This document shows positions 56,096-64,000 of a DNA stretch of 64,000 nt, in pieces. This stretch comes from an uncultured bacterium. GTDB lineage: Bacteria; Bacillota; Clostridia; Oscillospirales; Oscillospiraceae. The notes beneath the pieces are model-generated. The model saw only the letters and a list, made by a program, of their open reading frames with translations, did not search any database and was not told the origin of the DNA. The translations under genes and the position numbers were made by a program. How positions within the stretch are numbered: position 1 is the first letter of the stretch; each line of letters begins with the position of its first letter. The stretch is taken from contig CAMTMC010000007.1 of assembly GCA_947073515.1 (NCBI GenBank), positions 1 to 64,000 of the forward strand, given 5' to 3'.

Positions 56096-56854
56096 GTGAG
56101 AAACCAAGGCTTTATGAAGAAGCTGGGCGACTTCATGCTGGGAAAGGGCTTTTACATAGTCCTGTTCCTGTGTGTCGCCACCATAGGAATTTCGGGCTAT
56201 TATCTGCTTCAGACCGTTGTAGGGGGCGTGGGCGGCGTGGAGCCGGCCGGGGCCTCCGCCTCAGTGACCATCCCGGACCAGGGGCCCTCCCGCCCTGCGG
56301 CGCCGGCCACTCCGTCCAACCCGCCGGTGGAGGAGGTCCCCGCCGAGCCTCCCATCCCGCCGGCGGAGCCGGCTGACCAGCCGGACGACCCGGAGCCCCT
56401 GGCCGAGAAGGGCCGGGAGCCGGAGGAGGATCAGGGGCTGAAATCCACCGTCTTTACCTGGCCGGTGAAGGGGGCTGTCCTGCGGGACTACAGCGTGGAG
56501 ACCCTGTCCCTGGACCCCACCTTGGGGGACTGGCGCACCCACGGGGGGCTGGACATCGCCGCCGCCCAGGGGGTTCAGGTCATCTCTATGAGCGCCGGCA
56601 CCGTCTCCAAGGTGTATGAGGACGGCCTGATGGGCACCACAGTGGTGGTGGATCACGGCGGCGGCCTTCAGTCCTGGTACTGCAATCTGGCGCCGGAGCC
56701 CTCCGTCCAGGAGGGGGACACGGTGGAGATCGGCGGGGTGCTGGGCCGGGTCGGCGGAAGCGCCATCGCCGAGGTGGGGGTGGGCTCCCACCTGCACCTG
56801 GAGACCACCTTGGACGGCCAGATGGTTGACCCCAGGGAGTATTTGCCCCAATAA
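56096..56854 (+). CDS. spoIIQ: M23 peptidase-domain protein, SpoIIQ-like
   Basis: The 252-residue protein has a short cytoplasmic start, one membrane segment (about 20-40), a Pro/Glu-rich linker (about 55-115) and an M23 (LytM) domain. The domain keeps HGGLDIA (His and Asp ligands) and HLHLE, so, unlike Bacillus SpoIIQ which lacks a complete zinc site, it looks catalytically intact, as in clostridia. SpoIIQ connects forespore and mother cell with SpoIIIAH. The GTG start at 56096 has GGAGGTG 6 nt upstream. The sigma-F-like promoter supports the name; a general endopeptidase is the alternative. Confidence 0.75.
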   Translation: MRNQGFMKKLGDFMLGKGFYIVLFLCVATIGISGYYLLQTVVGGVGGVEPAGASASVTIPDQGPSRPAAPATPSNPPVEEVPAEPPIPPAEPADQPDDPEPLAEKGREPEEDQGLKSTVFTWPVKGAVLRDYSVETLSLDPTLGDWRTHGGLDIAAAQGVQVISMSAGTVSKVYEDGLMGTTVVVDHGGGLQSWYCNLAPEPSVQEGDTVEIGGVLGRVGGSAIAEVGVGSHLHLETTLDGQMVDPREYLPQ

Positions 56855-56861
56855 AAAAGTG

Positions 56862-56895
56862 GACGCCACCGGATAGACGGTGGCGTCTGTTTTTA
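56862..56895. terminator. Terminator of the SpoIIQ-like gene
   Basis: GACGCCACCG (56862-56871) with CGGTGGCGTC (56878-56887), then TGTTTTT; the minus strand has TTTTTTAT on the other side. Confidence 0.82.
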
Positions 56896-57957
56896 TGCTT
56901 GGGACAGGAGAGTATCCCGGATGTTCTGGGCGAAGGCCTCCAGACGGGTTTGGATGCCTGGCAGGGCCAGGGCCTGGCCGGGGGAGTTGGCCGTCTCCAT
57001 GAGGGCGAAGTTCTGGGGGAGATAGAAGGATTTGTTCATGTTCATGGCGGCCACCACCTGCCGGGCCAGGATGTCCCCGCCGGAGTAGCCGGAGACGATG
57101 ATGGCGAACACCGCCTTGTTATAGAAGCGGGTCTGGCGGAACAGGGCGGTGAGCCGGTTGATGAAGGCGGTGAGGTTGGCGGACAGGGCGTCGTTGTAGT
57201 TGGGGCAGAGGAGGACCAGGGCGTCCGCCTCCCGGACGGCGGGGTAGACCTCCTCCGACATAAGGCCGCCGTAAAAACAGCCCCCCCGCTCCCCGAAGTG
57301 GAGGCACATGGTGTAGGGACAGCCGGAGCAGTCGGACAGGGTGCCGTTGCGCAGGCCGATCTCCTGGATGGAGCAGCGGTCCTCCAGCCGCTCCCGCACC
57401 CGACCCCACAGGGCCATGGTGTTGGAGGTGTGGTGGCTGGAGGCGTGGAGGGCTAAAATATTTGGACGGTTTCGTCTGGGGAAGGATTCCGACTCCAGGC
57501 GCTGGGCCAGCCCGGCGGCGGCGGCCCGGTAGGCCTCCATCAGGCCGCAGCCCAGGTTGCCCGCCTGGACGGTGAAATTGGCCAGAGAGCCGGTGGCCTC
57601 CACCAGAGGGCGGCCCAGCAGGGCGCACCCCGCCTGGTTCAGGGCCAGGGCCCCCTCGGCGGCGGTGGACTTGGTGTACAGCTCGCTGGCGCCGTCCACA
57701 ATGAGGCCGCCCACACAGCCGGACAGCAGGCCGGGCTCCTTCCGCAGACGGGCCAGGATACGCTGGTACTCCAGGTTGACCCCGGTGTCCCCCAGGGGGA
57801 GGGCCAGGAGGATTTTCTGGCCGTGGAGGCTGTCCAGTTCTCCGGCGGAGCGGAGAATACGGACTTCCCGGCCCGCCAGGGCCTGGTTCAGAATCCCGTC
57901 CAGCCGCTGGCCAGCCCAGCCGCAGTCGGGGGTGGGATGGATGAGGGTGATGGGCAT
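56893..57957 (-). CDS. Flavodoxin/NADPH-dependent FMN reductase-like protein
   Basis: The C-terminal half (about 185-350) is a flavodoxin-like fold: LALHASSHHTSNTMALWGRV at the FMN phosphate loop, LLCPNYNDALSANLTAFINRL, and VSGYSGGDI. A cysteine group CSGCPYTMCLHFGERGGCFY resembles iron-sulfur flavoproteins. The N-terminal half (about 1-180) holds GDTGVNLEYQRI and repeated small-residue helices with no clear family. The ATG at 57957 has AAGGAGG upstream. The electron partner and substrate are unknown. Confidence 0.78.
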   Translation of the reverse strand: MPITLIHPTPDCGWAGQRLDGILNQALAGREVRILRSAGELDSLHGQKILLALPLGDTGVNLEYQRILARLRKEPGLLSGCVGGLIVDGASELYTKSTAAEGALALNQAGCALLGRPLVEATGSLANFTVQAGNLGCGLMEAYRAAAAGLAQRLESESFPRRNRPNILALHASSHHTSNTMALWGRVRERLEDRCSIQEIGLRNGTLSDCSGCPYTMCLHFGERGGCFYGGLMSEEVYPAVREADALVLLCPNYNDALSANLTAFINRLTALFRQTRFYNKAVFAIIVSGYSGGDILARQVVAAMNMNKSFYLPQNFALMETANSPGQALALPGIQTRLEAFAQNIRDTLLSQA

Positions 57958-58037
57958 GGCATCGCCTCCTTTCAGCAGGATTAGTGGGTTGAAAGCCAAA
58001 ATAAGACGGATTCATCTATATCTTGATTTGCAGCGGT

Positions 58038-58610
58038 TCAGCGGGATACCGCCCGTCCGGCCAGCCCCTTGACCGCGTGAAACAGGGTGGCGGACAGCAG
58101 GATGGCCAGGCTGTTCCAGATGATATCATTGACATCAAAGCTGCGGCCAAACACCGGCTGAAGCAGCTCGATGGACAGGCAGAGGGCCAGGCCGGTTCCC
58201 ACCGTCTGGCCCCAGGAGCTCCGGGGGCGGAACAGGGGGTGGAGCAGGCCGAAGGGGAAGAACATCAGCAGGTTGCCCAGCTGCTCCCGGTCCGCCAGGG
58301 AGAGGGTGGGGATCAGGTCGAATTCCCAGGAGAACCAGCGAATGGAACGGCCGCTGGGCATGTGGTAAAAGAGGAAATAGTACAGAACCCCCATCAGATC
58401 CAGAAACAGGGTGAGGCACAGCAGGCCGGTGAGGTAGCACACAAACAGGGCGGGGACAAGGTCCCGCACAAGGGGGCCGCCGCTGTGTTTTCTCCGGCGG
58501 AGGACAAAAATCAGGCCGGCGGTCAGAGCGATGGGGAGGGCCTGGAGGAAAAAGCCGGGGTAGGTGCTAAAGAAAAAATACTGGAAGTTCATGTCGTCGG
58601 GGAAGTACAT
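58038..58610 (-). CDS. VanZ-like membrane protein
   Basis: This 190-residue protein has five hydrophobic segments and the VanZ pattern: NLLMFFPFGLLHPLF, then SIELLQPVFGRSFDVNDIIWNSLAILL. VanZ-family proteins are linked to teicoplanin resistance in Tn1546, but most homologues are of unknown function. The ATG at 58610 with GGAGG lies 11 bp after the dehydrogenase-like gene, so it is in the same transcript as the large fusion. Confidence 0.88.
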   Translation of the reverse strand: MYFPDDMNFQYFFFSTYPGFFLQALPIALTAGLIFVLRRRKHSGGPLVRDLVPALFVCYLTGLLCLTLFLDLMGVLYYFLFYHMPSGRSIRWFSWEFDLIPTLSLADREQLGNLLMFFPFGLLHPLFRPRSSWGQTVGTGLALCLSIELLQPVFGRSFDVNDIIWNSLAILLSATLFHAVKGLAGRAVSR

Positions 58611-58621
58611 AGGGGGCCTCC

Positions 58622-59908
58622 TTACAAAACCTCTTTCAAATGCTCCGCCGCCTCCCGGATGTGGCCGAAGAGCTGGTCGGGGATGTGGGGAAGCAACTCG
58701 GTCTCCACCCCGGCGGGGGTGAAGCGGTTTTTCACCCCCATGTAGATGCCGTCCAGGAAGACGGAGCCACAGTGCCACTCCCCCCGGAGGGTGAGGAGGA
58801 GGGACAGCGCCCCGGAGGACAGGGCGGGGGCCACGTAGGGCTTGAAGCCGATCTCCCGCATTTTCAGATTGGCGGTGACGGTGAGGCGGGTCAGCTCCTG
58901 GGAGATCTCCTCGTCGTAATGCTCAATGGAGTTGGCGATGAACAGGCCGGTGCCGTGGGGGCCAAAGGAGCGGCCCTCGGTGAGGAAGGAGGCCAGCCGC
59001 CCGTCCCGCTTGGCGAAGTAGGCCGCCCGGGCGTTCATTACCCCCAGGCCGAAGCCCTGGACCTGCTCGGGCCGGAGGCCCCTGCCGTCCCAGCCGCCGT
59101 TTTCGTCCCGGTTGCTCTCCAGATAGGCGGTTTTGGCCAGGGGGTCCACCGGGTCGGACACGGCGCACCACAGGCCCTTGAACTGCCGCTCCCGGGCCAG
59201 TTTGGCGTATTGTTTCACGATCTTGGCGTTGTTCTCAAACTGGTACATCCGCACGTCCTTCACCTGGGAGCCCACCGGCGGGATGCCCTTGGAGGCCACA
59301 AAGACGAACATGTCGCAGTCGAAAAGCTCTTCCGGCTTGACCACGTGGACCTCCGGGAAGGCGTCGTAGTCCCAGGGCAGGCTGATCTGGCCCATCTCAA
59401 ACTCCCAGCGGTCGGTGATCTGGCCGCTGAGGTCGCAGATACCGATGGAGGAGATCACGTCCCCGCCCAGCAGCTTCAGGCCGGTGAGGAGGGTGGAGCC
59501 CACGTCCCCGATGGCCAGGATGTTCACCCGCTTCTTCCCAGGGCTGGGGGACCAGTGAAGCAGCTCCTCCCAGCCGGGGCGGGCGGTGTTGACAGCGGTG
59601 AGCCGGCCGTCCCGGATGGCGGCGGAGACGGTTTCGTCCAGGCTGGCGGCGAGGGTTGTCCCGTGATGCAAAATAGAGACGGAGCCGTCTAAAAAAGAGG
59701 GGAGGCGGGAGGCGTCCAGCGCCTCCAGGCCATGGCCGGCCAGCAGCTGGCCGGGGTGGGTGACCTTGAAGGAGGCCCGGCCCAGCGCCGGGTCCCCGGG
59801 GACAGCGGCGTGCAGCCGCCAGCTGTTGGAGGGCTCGATCTCAGGGCCGAGGCCCTCCAGCGGGGCCAAGGAGGCCAGGGCGGCGCCGTTTACATTATAA
59901 TAATACAT
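58622..59908 (-). CDS. Divergent lactate/malate dehydrogenase-fold protein with N-terminal extension
   Basis: Residues about 125-425 follow the LDH/MDH plan: Rossmann strand VNILAIGDVGSTLLTGL, acidic end of strand two (ICDLSGQ), DVRMYQFENNAKIVKQYAK, the substrate-loop-like VSDPVDPL, FGLGVMNARAAYF, and RSFGPHGTG where the catalytic histidine sits. The usual GxGxxG and TAGxP loops are altered (GDVGST, ASKGIPP), so activity is uncertain. The first 125 residues are extra; typical family members are about 310-330 long. It lies 60 bp downstream of the giant adenylyltransferase fusion and probably works with it. Confidence 0.75.
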   Translation of the reverse strand: MYYYNVNGAALASLAPLEGLGPEIEPSNSWRLHAAVPGDPALGRASFKVTHPGQLLAGHGLEALDASRLPSFLDGSVSILHHGTTLAASLDETVSAAIRDGRLTAVNTARPGWEELLHWSPSPGKKRVNILAIGDVGSTLLTGLKLLGGDVISSIGICDLSGQITDRWEFEMGQISLPWDYDAFPEVHVVKPEELFDCDMFVFVASKGIPPVGSQVKDVRMYQFENNAKIVKQYAKLARERQFKGLWCAVSDPVDPLAKTAYLESNRDENGGWDGRGLRPEQVQGFGLGVMNARAAYFAKRDGRLASFLTEGRSFGPHGTGLFIANSIEHYDEEISQELTRLTVTANLKMREIGFKPYVAPALSSGALSLLLTLRGEWHCGSVFLDGIYMGVKNRFTPAGVETELLPHIPDQLFGHIREAAEHLKEVL

Positions 59909-59968: not shown

Positions 59969-62900
59969 TCACATGTTCTGCCGCAGCAGCTGCTCCAGAT
60001 CGTTTTCCAGGTAGACGGAGGCGGACAGGTTGGGGTCGTAGTGCAGGCAGGTGCCCTTGTCGGGGCACAGGGGGAGGATGACCGCCTCCGCCAGCCGGGA
60101 GAGGGTGAGGTTGCGGCCATAGAGGGTGCGGTACTCCTGCTCCAGGGCCCGGATGACATCCAGGGAGCTCTCCAGGCAGGCCCGGGAGAGCTGGAGGACC
60201 TTCTCCCGGCCGCACTCCTCCTGGTAGGCGGGGGAGGCGTAGGGGAGGATGTGGTTGATGCCGGGGAGCAGGCCGGGCACCGGGGAGGTGGCCCGCCGGA
60301 CCGTGTTGCCGCCGATGAAGGGGCATAGGGTGGCCTCCACAAACCACTGGCGGAGGGTGGGCAGGAAGTACACCGAGTCCACCGGGCGCTCCCGGTGGTT
60401 CATCAGGTCCTTGCCGTAGCCCGACAGGACGCCCACCAGCACCATGCGGATGGGCACCCCCTCCTGCCGGAGGATGGGGTCCAGGGTTTTGAAGCGGAAG
60501 CCGGGGTGCATCAGGTCGTCCACCAGGATCACCGGCCGGTTGAAGGACTTGATGGTGCGGATCTGGCTGGGGATGGGGGCGTAGTAGGGGAAGGCCTCCA
60601 TCACGCTCTCCGACAGGTCCGGGGAGAACACCTTGTCGGTGTGGACCGTCTTGGTGACGGTGTTGGGCACCATCTTCCCCCGGAGGAGCTTTCCGTAGGG
60701 GACGCACATATTCTCCCCCAGCACCCGGGGGGTGGTGGGCACGGCGGGGACGTTGTTATAGGCGGTGATCTTCTCCAGCAGCCGCTGGTGGATCACGTCG
60801 GCGGACAGGGTGAGCAGGAGGGAGCCGGGGTAGAGCTGGGCCAGGGCCAGCTGGAGCCGCTCGTGGCCCCGGCGGATGGCGGACAGCACGTGCCGGTTGT
60901 GGCACAGCGGCTCCTGGATGGCGGTCTCCAGGTTCTGGATCAGCACCGACGGGGCGTGCATATCCACCTCCCAGATAGGGCGGCCCCGCTCCAGGGAGAG
61001 GAAGCCGGTACGGGTGAGCAGCTCCTCCACGGGGGGGGATATCTGGCCGTTGTGGGGGCGGAAGACGCCGTAGACACAGGACTCCTCCAGCGCCCGGGCC
61101 AGCAGCTCGCACAGGAGGAGCTGGTGGCAGTCCCGGTGGGGGTCGGAGGTGTCGGCGGCCAGGCCGGTGATGAGGAGGACCGGCCCGGAGGAGCGCAGGC
61201 GGACCCGGTTGGCCAGCTCGGTGTCCCCCAGGGCGGAGAAGAGCTGGGAGGAGGACAGGTGGCGGAAGCTGATATAGCCCAGCAGACGGCTGTCCCTGCT
61301 GTTTTCCAGCAGAAGGACATGGTCGCCCTGCTCGGACATGGAGGAGCGCAGAAACTCATGGTCGGGCTGGCCGGCGGTGAGGGCCTCCAGCTGGAGGGGG
61401 TTGGGCTGGCCCAGCCAGTGGAAGGCCAGCTCGGTGGCCCCCAGCATGGATTTGTCCTGGCTGTCCCGGAGGTACAGGCCGTTTTGGTAGATGAAATCCT
61501 GGATCACCGGGTCGATGAAGCTGGAGATGTCCCGGTTCAGGTCCACGTTCTCCCGGATGCGGGAGGAGCTGATGTCCTTCAGGTGGGAGGGGAGCTGGAG
61601 CTGGATGACCCGGCCGGAGATGGGCAGGTCCCGGGGCAGCTCGGCCTCCCCGGCACGGCGGAAGATGACGTGGTTCATCCGGTGGATGGAGTAGGGCTTG
61701 GAGGGGGCCTTGTAGGAGGAGGCGTTGGCCACCACGTCGCTGCCCGCCACGATGTACACCTCCTGGCCGGGAAAGAGCTCCACCAGCCGGCGCAGGTTGC
61801 CCGGGTTGGCGATGTTCACCGGGATGTCATCGGGGAACAGGTGGACGTGGAAGTCGCCGGCCACGGACATGTTGACGATCTGGCGGCGGATCAGGTGGGG
61901 CTGGGCCTTCTTGGACCAGGAGAACTCGTCCACAGCCAGGTAGACCTCAAAGCCCAGGTCCCGGATGGCGTGGACAATGCCCTTGTGGGAGAGGGTGAAG
62001 GGGTCGAAGGTGCCGGGGAAGAAGGCGATCTTCTTGGGCCGCTCAAAGGTGAAGGGGCCGCGGTCCAGCCGGCGGATGGCGATGAAGCGGTTGATGTGGG
62101 CCAGGGCCGCCGCCCGGTAGAAGAAGGTGAGGCCATCCTGGCGGGGGGACTCCTGCACCAGGAAGAGGAGCTTGCGGTAGCACAGGGCGAACAGGCGGGC
62201 CTTCTCCTCCATGGGGAGGATCGGGCTGTCGAAGAGGAGTTTGCCGGCCACCAGCAGGGCCTCCTGCCGGACGGCCTCCCGGTAGTGGGCCAGGCCCTGG
62301 AGCAGCAGGCCCAGCAGCTCCCGGCGGCGGGCCTCGAAGGCCTGGTCCGACTGGGAGAAGCGGTCCCGGTAGGCGGGGTAGTGCTGGAGGAGGACGCCGA
62401 TGGTGTTCAGGGCGCCGGCCACCGCGGAGTCGTTGGGGGAGCCCAGGAGGGATTTCAGCCACAGCACCTGCTCATCCAGCTCGGAGGGGTGGAGGAAGAG
62501 GGCGGCCTCCCCCAGATACTCGGGGATGTACTTGGAGATGGCGTACTGGCCCATCTCCAGGCCCTTGCCCAGCTCCACCACCACCTCGTTGCGCTGGTCC
62601 CGGCGCAGGGAGGCCAGGGTGAGCACCAGGGCGGAGCCGGCGGTGTGCCGGACCACCACCCGCTCGGACACCTTGACCAGGTTGGAGAAGTGGGTGGCGA
62701 TGTGGAGGATGTGGGTCTGAAGGCCGTGGTCCACCTGGTCCCGGAGGAGCTCCACGCCGGCCACCTTCACGATCCAGGGGGTGGCGGTCTTCAGGTTGTC
62801 CAGGAAGACCTCGCTGGTGATATCGGTGTGGTAGAGGGTCTGCTCCAGGGCGGAGACATCGGCCCCCGCCCGGCGCAGGATCTTGCACTGGAGGAAAATG

Positions 62901-64000
62901 GTGGTCAGGTGGGTGTCCCGCACGCCCCGGACGATGTCCGCGATGCGGGCCATCTGGGGGTGGGTGCGGGGGAGGTTGCGCACGGTCTCCCGCAGGAACT
63001 GGAGGGAGGCGGTGACCAGCCGCAGCTCCGGGGAGTTGGCGAAGCAGGCGGCATAGCTCACCAGCTTATCCCGGGTGGCCTCGTCGTAATACTTGGGGGG
63101 CAGGTAGCGGATGGAGTCCAGCAGGGCGAAGGCGGTGTCCCCCTCGGTATCGTTGGGGTACTCAAAGTAATACAGCAGGGCGTCCAGGAAACGGGGGATA
63201 TCCTGGGGGCGGGCGTGCTCCAGCATGCCGCCGATCACCAGCTTCAGGGTATAGCCGATGTGGGAGCGCTGCTGCTGGGTGGTCTTGTGGTCGGGGTAGA
63301 GGATCATATCCAGGTACTGCTCCCACAGGGTGAAGGGGACCTCCTCCGCCGGGTCGGAGCCGGCGTCGGCGGGGAGCTCCTTCTGGTAGACCAGGTGGAA
63401 GCGGGCGATGATCTGGCCGATGAGGGCGCCGGCCTGGCGGCGGATGTCGCCCTCCCGGTGGACCAGCAGCTCGTAGAGGAAGGAGAGGGCCTGGGTCTTC
63501 TGCCGGACGGACAGGTAAGTAAAGTACTCCTCAAACACGTTTAGGTAGGCCCGCAGCTGCTGCCAGCTCTTGGCGGAGCGGGCCGCCTCGATGATATTGC
63601 CGAACTTCTGCTCGTTAGACAGCATGTGCATCAGCCGCAGGTTGTGCTCCACCGACAGGAGGATGAGGCTGTTCAGCGTCTCCTCCGGGTCCATGAGGGC
63701 GGGGTCCTTCCGGGGGGCGGGGGGCTCCGGCTGGCCGGTGAGATCCACGTCCACCCCCAGAGAGCGCATATAGTCCTCAAAATCGTGGAGCTTGCCGTAG
63801 ACAAACTCGTACCGGCGGCGCTTCTTCCAGTCCACGTTGTCCAGCTTAGTGAGGATCACCTGGAAGGACTCATCCAGGGGGTAGAGGACGACGATCTCAT
63901 TGCCGTCCCTGTCCCGCTCGGACTTGGAGCGGAAGTCGGCGTAGATCAGCAGCAGGGACTCCACGGACAGGGACTCCAGCTCCAGGTCCCAGGTGGAGTG
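59969..64000 (-). CDS. Giant multidomain protein: helical repeats, NadD/CoaD-type adenylyltransferase, acetyltransferase-like and phosphoribosyltransferase-like domains (5' end outside window)
   Basis: The frame is open to the right edge, so at least 1343 residues are visible and the start is missing. Codons from about 63700 to 62050 form alpha-helical HEAT-like repeats. Next is a nucleotidyltransferase domain: KKIAFFPGTFDPFTLSHKG (near 62015, TLSH replacing the usual T/HxGH), IVAGSD, and DISSSRIREN (near 61570), the ISSTxxR-type ATP site. About 61480-60970 looks weakly GNAT-like (LLGYISFRHL). Near 60530, RPVILVDDLMHPG resembles a phosphoribosyltransferase PRPP loop. No family with this whole order is known to me. 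Confidence 0.72.
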   Translation of the reverse strand, partial: HSTWDLELESLSVESLLLIYADFRSKSERDRDGNEIVVLYPLDESFQVILTKLDNVDWKKRRRYEFVYGKLHDFEDYMRSLGVDVDLTGQPEPPAPRKDPALMDPEETLNSLILLSVEHNLRLMHMLSNEQKFGNIIEAARSAKSWQQLRAYLNVFEEYFTYLSVRQKTQALSFLYELLVHREGDIRRQAGALIGQIIARFHLVYQKELPADAGSDPAEEVPFTLWEQYLDMILYPDHKTTQQQRSHIGYTLKLVIGGMLEHARPQDIPRFLDALLYYFEYPNDTEGDTAFALLDSIRYLPPKYYDEATRDKLVSYAACFANSPELRLVTASLQFLRETVRNLPRTHPQMARIADIVRGVRDTHLTTIFLQCKILRRAGADVSALEQTLYHTDITSEVFLDNLKTATPWIVKVAGVELLRDQVDHGLQTHILHIATHFSNLVKVSERVVVRHTAGSALVLTLASLRRDQRNEVVVELGKGLEMGQYAISKYIPEYLGEAALFLHPSELDEQVLWLKSLLGSPNDSAVAGALNTIGVLLQHYPAYRDRFSQSDQAFEARRRELLGLLLQGLAHYREAVRQEALLVAGKLLFDSPILPMEEKARLFALCYRKLLFLVQESPRQDGLTFFYRAAALAHINRFIAIRRLDRGPFTFERPKKIAFFPGTFDPFTLSHKGIVHAIRDLGFEVYLAVDEFSWSKKAQPHLIRRQIVNMSVAGDFHVHLFPDDIPVNIANPGNLRRLVELFPGQEVYIVAGSDVVANASSYKAPSKPYSIHRMNHVIFRRAGEAELPRDLPISGRVIQLQLPSHLKDISSSRIRENVDLNRDISSFIDPVIQDFIYQNGLYLRDSQDKSMLGATELAFHWLGQPNPLQLEALTAGQPDHEFLRSSMSEQGDHVLLLENSRDSRLLGYISFRHLSSSQLFSALGDTELANRVRLRSSGPVLLITGLAADTSDPHRDCHQLLLCELLARALEESCVYGVFRPHNGQISPPVEELLTRTGFLSLERGRPIWEVDMHAPSVLIQNLETAIQEPLCHNRHVLSAIRRGHERLQLALAQLYPGSLLLTLSADVIHQRLLEKITAYNNVPAVPTTPRVLGENMCVPYGKLLRGKMVPNTVTKTVHTDKVFSPDLSESVMEAFPYYAPIPSQIRTIKSFNRPVILVDDLMHPGFRFKTLDPILRQEGVPIRMVLVGVLSGYGKDLMNHRERPVDSVYFLPTLRQWFVEATLCPFIGGNTVRRATSPVPGLLPGINHILPYASPAYQEECGREKVLQLSRACLESSLDVIRALEQEYRTLYGRNLTLSRLAEAVILPLCPDKGTCLHYDPNLSASVYLENDLEQLLRQNM

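Follow-up and report, generated by a model that had tools for sequence, protein, structure and literature searches.

Among described proteins, the nearest counterparts of the locus reported here are the nicotinate mononucleotide (NaMN) adenylyltransferase NadD and its fusion to the HD phosphohydrolase YqeK. In JCVI-Syn3A, where such a fusion has been described, the YqeK part is an HD domain that splits nicotinate adenine dinucleotide (NaAD) and its analogues and is proposed to repair NadD mistakes (PMC9426524). The present locus lies at the end of a 64,000-nucleotide stretch of DNA from an uncultured bacterium of the Oscillospiraceae (the window; positions 1–64000 of the 86,156-base contig CAMTMC010000007.1) and comprises a giant gene, A, and two partner genes, B and C. 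Gene A codes, in order, for an HD phosphohydrolase domain, a HEAT solenoid, a NadD-fold adenylyltransferase, a GNAT fold, a divergent phosphoribosyltransferase (PRTase)-like domain and a conserved tail, and its association with B, a dehydrogenase-like protein, and C, a flavoprotein-like one, is near-obligate. A-B-C may be a set of enzymes that produces and then refines a nucleotide resembling nicotinamide adenine dinucleotide (NAD), with B and C modifying or using the product; this reading is held tentatively, at somewhat less than an even chance.

Architecture of gene A

The full open reading frame of A contains 1,596 codons, of which 1,343 open codons, the C-terminal 84% of the gene, fall inside the window, with the frame still open at the window end. 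A sequence-only reading of residues 254–1596 had proposed a giant fusion of helical repeats with adenylyltransferase and PRTase-like regions. The fusion is real, and the motif-based domain names (HEAT-like, nucleotidyltransferase, acetyltransferase-like and PRTase-like) were right; the N-terminal HD domain, which begins past the window, and the conserved A-B-C module were missed. The HEAT, NadD and GNAT assignments are supported by predicted structure, the HD assignment by profile, and the PRTase assignment moderately. The architecture is retained at 33–40% identity between homologues (measured on 10 near proteins and on 27 of 29 distant ones, after exclusion of two fragments), and models from Pfam, NCBIfam, PADLOC and PHROGs match A over single domains at most. 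No split form of A is present among the A matches gathered, a collection made with no search for stand-alone relatives of single domains. Two alignments define the C-terminal tail, one of 62 of 83 full-length proteins with near-duplicates removed, the other of 34 of the 83 together with the window's own protein.

Profiles and metal-ligand residues place the N-terminal domain in the HD phosphohydrolase superfamily. First, PF01966 (HD) is detected in 24 of 25 A homologues at E ≤1 (best 1.1e-5), with the window genome's own copy under the gathering score (16.7 vs 22). Second, the best match in a PDB profile search is an HD protein (E 0.006). Third, six candidate metal ligands, H180, H214, D215 and H231 outside the window and H254 and D275 inside it, are identical in 40 of 40 A sequences, a set made up of 8 near, 27 distant and 5 phylum-level homologues and excluding L171, in which A is cut at a contig end.

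The adenylyltransferase domain is NadD-like both by profile and by fold. Structure comparison gave a NadD fold at the GTFDPF block, where the sequence-only reading had placed a nucleotidyltransferase, and the closest fold matches are NaMN adenylyltransferases specifically. Residues H925, K950, R958, D1008, S1064, S1065 and R1069 are identical in all 40 sequences. The domain nevertheless scores well under the NadD cut-offs of PRK00071 and TIGR00482 (33.5 vs 150 bits and 30.7 vs 112.45). Compared with a single NadD, the genome's own, the ATP site of A reads TLSH in place of HLGH, with the second His retained, and WSKK in place of PPHK, with the Lys retained. For GRSYTADTL, A has a shorter and different stretch, NIANPxDL, and Tyr1016, one of the invariant positions of the 40 sequences, takes the place of the Trp in LHLW. 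The SYTADTL stretch and the Trp are taken here to be the nicotinate-ring contacts of NadD; because both places are replaced in A, the base that its adenylyltransferase domain handles may be other than nicotinate.

The NaMN adenylyltransferase matches favor an alternative in which A, an elaborate enzyme of NAD salvage or repair, acts on ordinary nicotinamide mononucleotide (NMN), NaMN or NAD, with B and C recycling NAD(P)H that is damaged or wrongly reduced; A would then be a second NadD joined to a nicotinate- or nicotinamide-PRTase-like step. The membership of B and C in NAD- and flavin-type families agrees with this, as does the precedent of an HD domain active on NaAD and its analogues (PMC9426524). 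However, the genome already encodes a complete, canonical NadD-YqeK fusion elsewhere (G000:C36:6816-7982; L155, L158), a single 507-aa open frame, and A is therefore not the housekeeping NadD, a candidate that was ruled out. The low NadD scores and the replacement of the presumed nicotinate contacts also count against salvage, which is unlikely. The nucleotide-cofactor chemistry that the sequence-only reading saw in an adenylyltransferase joined to a PRTase stays the best frame for A, but plain NAD synthesis within that frame is disfavored by the canonical fusion and the changed GRSYTADTL stretch.

The remaining domains are more divergent. The predicted structure of A contains a GNAT fold, but the alignment of this region (A9) shows no conserved R/Q-x-x-G-x-G/A, the loop by which GNAT proteins bind acetyl-coenzyme A (CoA). 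In the following domain, PF00156 is detected in 17 of 28 A homologues (best 8.2e-4), the window's own copy being unmatched. Aligned by hhalign with type I PRTases, the domain scores 30.5 against at most 20.6 for shuffles, and the match is collinear, with the motif for phosphoribosyl pyrophosphate (PRPP) in register. The PRTases in this comparison (29 of 30 loci) were picked by a PRPP-motif pattern, which favors motif-bearing sequences, and all 29 form one HPRT-like cluster; among the hhalign controls, A6 against A9 gave 45.7% over 11 columns, with overlapping segments, and the other four gave 0.1–2.6%. Elsewhere in the domain, N1366, T1367, T1369, G1484 and N1502 are identical in 40 of 40 sequences. 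The profile relation and the PRPP motif with its acidic pair together provide moderate sequence evidence for a type I PRTase-like domain in A.

The predicted solenoid forms the superhelix of helix pairs typical of HEAT repeats, and its top structural analogues include scaffolds of RNA complexes and protein complexes. Since HEAT solenoids are generally known to bind proteins or nucleic acids, A might instead act on a macromolecule, the solenoid binding RNA, tRNA or protein and the adenylyltransferase, PRTase and HD domains adding, exchanging or removing a nucleotide on it. Solenoid similarity says nothing on function, though, the NadD-fold enzymes matched use small mononucleotides, and dehydrogenase-like and flavoprotein-like partners suit small-molecule chemistry better. 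Action on a macromolecule is accordingly improbable.

Partner genes and their co-inheritance with A

The NAD-binding half of B resembles lactate/malate dehydrogenases, with a best E of 6e-7 in a PDB profile search. Pfam Ldh_1_N gives 1.3e-6 for a distant B homologue and 0.0052, under the cut-off, for the window's B; with the NCBI lactate dehydrogenase model, B reaches 16 of 303.55 bits. Arg220 and a GPHG motif with His318 are invariant and presumably correspond to the catalytic residues of lactate/malate dehydrogenases, and the Asn of the SNPVD motif is replaced by a family-invariant Asp. Protein C has an N-terminal region of about 170 residues and an FMN_red domain (2.2e-18); a search of NCBIfam with C gave no match. 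Four Cys residues (C224, C227, C232 and C241), spaced CX2CX4CX8C, are invariant in 28 C sequences (L066, with a stop within the extracted stretch, is excluded) and probably form an iron-sulfur (Fe-S) centre.

Gene order is conserved. B is found in 65 of 73 titled A loci, downstream and on the same strand in 64 and rearranged in L063; the eight loci without B have <1 kb of sequence downstream of A. C is found in 60 of the 73, downstream and on the same strand in 58 and on the opposite strand in L044 and L063, and all but L050 and L087 of the 13 loci without C have <1.5 kb of downstream sequence. B also lies downstream of A in 20 of 20 further class loci, at ≤326 bases in 18 and at 5.4–5.7 kb in two. 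In the latter two genomes (L106 and L136), C adjoins B. An FMN riboswitch is present at L106:546-665 (+), upstream of the gene preceding A (genome G186), and a related gene stands upstream of A in L136; an Rfam search over 30 loci (18 + 12) gave no element common to the A family.

The three genes also occur together across genomes. Within the class Clostridia, A is present in 32 of 391 genomes (37 matches minus 5 weak ones covering only part of the NadD-like domain). B, at E <1e-100, is present in 31 class genomes, all among those 32, and in 0 of 359 A-less genomes, a single one of which gave a weak match (1.2e-12). C is present in 30 of the 32 A genomes and in all eight genomes reached via titled loci; none of the 21 A-less genomes tested has it. 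The exceptions are G337, without B and C, and G396, without C; both are fragmented, with a completeness of 84% and 82%, respectively. A sample of 398 genomes from the phylum contains B in eight, two of them already known; the other six all have an adjoining C. Five of these six have an A of full length with the same set of domains, and in the sixth (L171) a contig end truncates it. Three genomes (G315, G357 and G462) carry two A copies, and thus paralogues of A exist; one B is seen in each, that of G357 split over contig ends. Over the 26 loci with A, B and C all to hand, pairwise distances correlate between A and B (r 0.89) and between A and C (r 0.95; 0/999 permutations for either), and among the 17 distant loci alone r is 0.70 and 0.91. 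This correlation fits joint inheritance.

The module is patchy, since A is found in 19 of 19 genomes searched of the host genus but in 1 of 9 other genomes of the family (order sample). Carriers include Pseudoflavonifractor, Flintibacter, Flavonifractor, Lawsonibacter metagenome-assembled genomes (MAGs), Clostridium sporosphaeroides, Faecalispora jeddahensis and Acetoanaerobium noterae. Five MAGs titled Chloroflexi, Anaerolineaceae or Flexilinea (L072, L074, L075, L076 and L088; two goat-derived according to their titles) also have A, B and C. Because their A is 61–62% identical to that of the window, and because an order-wide sample of 81 genomes around one of them contains B in that MAG only, horizontal transfer between gut lineages, or mis-binning, is suggested.

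A patchy distribution would also suit an anti-phage or other conflict system, and large multidomain proteins of nucleotide chemistry are generally known in defence. This is nonetheless very improbable: PADLOC gave 0 families for A, B and C at E 0.1 and PHROG none at E 0.01, A is present throughout the host genus, and the trio of genes is the same at every distance sampled. Other origins were considered and rejected. For a phage gene, A had no PHROG match, and searches of viral contigs with two peptide patterns gave no relative; for a plasmid gene, a plasmid collection gave one match, a 2.6-Mb Acetoanaerobium noterae record. A role in sporulation was rejected as well, SpoIVA (PF09547) matching in the same share (72%) of class genomes with A (23 of 32) and without it (257 of 359).

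Table 1. Coordinates of the A-B-C locus and adjoining genes within the window.
Feature	Positions	Strand	Remarks
Gene A, residues 254–1596	59969..64000	minus	Stop codon 59969–59971; start ATG at contig position 64759, past window end
HD domain of A, C-terminal part, residues 254–345	63725..64000	minus	Rest of HD domain past window edge
HEAT-type alpha-solenoid of A, residues about 358–900	62060..63688	minus	Model of L060 homologue
NadD-fold nucleotidyltransferase domain of A, residues about 908–1098	61466..62038	minus	Profile and fold
ATP-site motif GTFDPFTLSH, residues 916–925	61985..62014	minus	D919, H925 identical in 40/40
ATP-site motif ISSSRIRE, residues 1063–1070	61550..61573	minus	S1064, S1065, I1068, R1069 identical in 40/40
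GNAT-fold domain of A, residues about 1110–1268	60956..61432	minus	Structure comparison; sequence poorly conserved
PRTase-like domain of A, residues about 1270–1510	60230..60952	minus	Nearly without gaps across the A family
PRPP-loop-like motif VILVDDLMHPG, residues 1410–1420	60500..60532	minus	D1414 39/40, D1415 35/40, G1420 39/40
Conserved C-terminal tail, residues 1511–1596	59972..60229	minus	Sequence alignments; no family assigned
Gene B, 428 aa, lactate/malate-dehydrogenase-like	58622..59908	minus	Directly downstream of A; N-terminal extension of about 110–125 residues
VanZ-like gene between B and C	58038..58610	minus	Start inferred; outside conserved core
Gene C, FMN_red protein	56893..57999	minus	ATG at 57957 is the likelier start
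Gene convergent with C	56096..56854	plus	Product presumably resembles an M23 peptidase of SpoIIQ kind

Possible function of the A-B-C module

A PRTase, a NadD-type adenylyltransferase and an HD hydrolase together provide what is needed to turn a base, PRPP and ATP into a dinucleotide and to degrade faulty products. In the A-B-C module, the PRTase-like domain would form or exchange the bond between a nitrogenous base and the ribose-5-phosphate of PRPP, and the NadD-type domain would adenylylate the resulting mononucleotide with ATP to give a dinucleotide. The HD domain would hydrolyze wrong or surplus dinucleotides, as YqeK is proposed to do for NadD. The solenoid would hold these sites in one assembly, perhaps with B and C docked to it, and the GNAT fold is probably a reduced module for binding CoA or a substrate. 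B, with its NAD-type dehydrogenase fold, and C, with its flavoprotein domain and probable Fe-S centre, could catalyze redox steps on the product or with its aid. We infer all the catalytic activities in this model, as well as the order of steps, the substrate and the docking.

Several observations weigh against such a system. The hhalign probability for the PRTase relation is only 20%, and in a PDB profile search with this domain HPRT is the sole match, at E 0.35. In type I PRTases a T-G phosphate loop follows the acidic pair; A has H/N-x-G-x-R instead, and 5 of 40 sequences carry another residue at the position of D1415, so that the domain could bind without catalysing. The model of the C half has a middling pLDDT (predicted local distance difference test score) of 73.7, and its structure comparison returned no PRTases, all matches being of NadD/NMNAT or GNAT type and the other domains being barely tested. 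Likewise, no HD proteins were returned for the N half, whose model is of the L060 homologue of A from Clostridium sporosphaeroides DSM 1294 and not of the window's own copy; these absences exclude nothing, because the matches were taken up by other domains. The HD domain is also not recognizably YqeK: the sole match of TIGR00488 in the genome is the NadD-YqeK locus, and hhalign against the genome's single own YqeK gives 0.2%. Among the partner genes, L050 and L087 have no C within 6 kb downstream of A, the rest of those two genomes being unsearched, and shared vertical descent predicts the same distance correlations as joint inheritance.

The altered or weakly conserved ligand loops of the PRTase and GNAT domains, the very large HEAT region and the presence of multiple ligand-type domains within a single chain would also fit a nucleotide-sensing regulator or scaffold, whose enzyme domains mainly bind ligands such as ATP, PRPP, CoA or a dinucleotide, with the solenoid passing the signal on to B, C or further proteins. 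For sensing alone, however, there would be no need of the full catalytic-type residue sets that the HD and adenylyltransferase domains keep in 40 of 40 sequences, and a purely sensory A is rather doubtful.

The proposed enzyme system for an NAD-like nucleotide could take a more specific form, a complete pathway to a dedicated redox cofactor, a dinucleotide that A makes and proofreads and whose base is neither nicotinate nor nicotinamide, with B and C making the base part or using the cofactor exclusively. A dedicated product for B and C is favored because A departs from NadD-YqeK in the order of its domains, its size, the type of its HD domain and its pocket, and because the genome keeps its own NadD-YqeK. 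This specific form is nevertheless unlikely. If true, it would amount to an undescribed cofactor system common to Oscillospiraceae, other anaerobic Bacillota and perhaps some gut Chloroflexota.

A five-domain protein of 1,600 residues is costly, yet its architecture is kept, nearly always with B and C. If A makes a nucleotide cofactor, common gut anaerobes would have one more metabolic pathway, and the orphan families B and C would gain a function; if its product is ordinary NAD, the system counts instead as a novel form of NAD synthesis or repair. The sequence-only reading knew of no characterized system with this order of domains, and none was found described in the open-access literature or in Pfam, NCBIfam, PADLOC or PHROGs. 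The literature search covered titles and the beginnings of abstracts, with subscription papers outside its scope, for an A-type protein or an A-B-C module. The domains are thus all known, while the architecture, module and product are undescribed as far as found, and the locus is new as a system to that extent.

Comparison with known systems

Each component of the module departs from its nearest family in specific ways. C shares the FMN_red domain and four invariant Cys, to which an Fe-S role is ascribed, with NADPH-dependent FMN reductases and iron-sulfur flavoproteins, but it differs in its Cys spacing and long N-terminal region, and its family is a specific one, linked to A and B. B shares the NAD-binding half, the invariant Arg and the GPHG motif with L-lactate/malate dehydrogenases, but it carries the Asp substitution in SNPVD and, in most members, an N-terminal extension. 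The PRTase-like domain of A shares with type I PRTases (PF00156, HPRT-like) a collinear profile, the PRPP motif in register and, mostly, the acidic pair, but it lacks the T-G that follows and has different invariant residues. With NadD, A has the fold and ATP-site motifs in common, but not the family-level scores or the residues replaced at the ATP site and base pocket.

The NadD-YqeK fusion JCVISYN3A_0380 comes nearest to A as a whole. Both proteins combine a NadD-fold adenylyltransferase and an HD phosphohydrolase in one chain with key residues kept, and the window genome's own NadD-YqeK has the arrangement described for mycoplasmas in PMC9426524. Unlike that fusion, A has the reversed order, with HD first, a solenoid of about 540 residues between the two domains and an HD domain that is not recognizably YqeK. 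It also has additional GNAT and PRTase-like domains, the partners B and C and a different base-pocket stretch, and it coexists with a true NadD-YqeK. Gene A thus extends the pairing of a NadD-type enzyme and an HD clean-up hydrolase to a new architecture.

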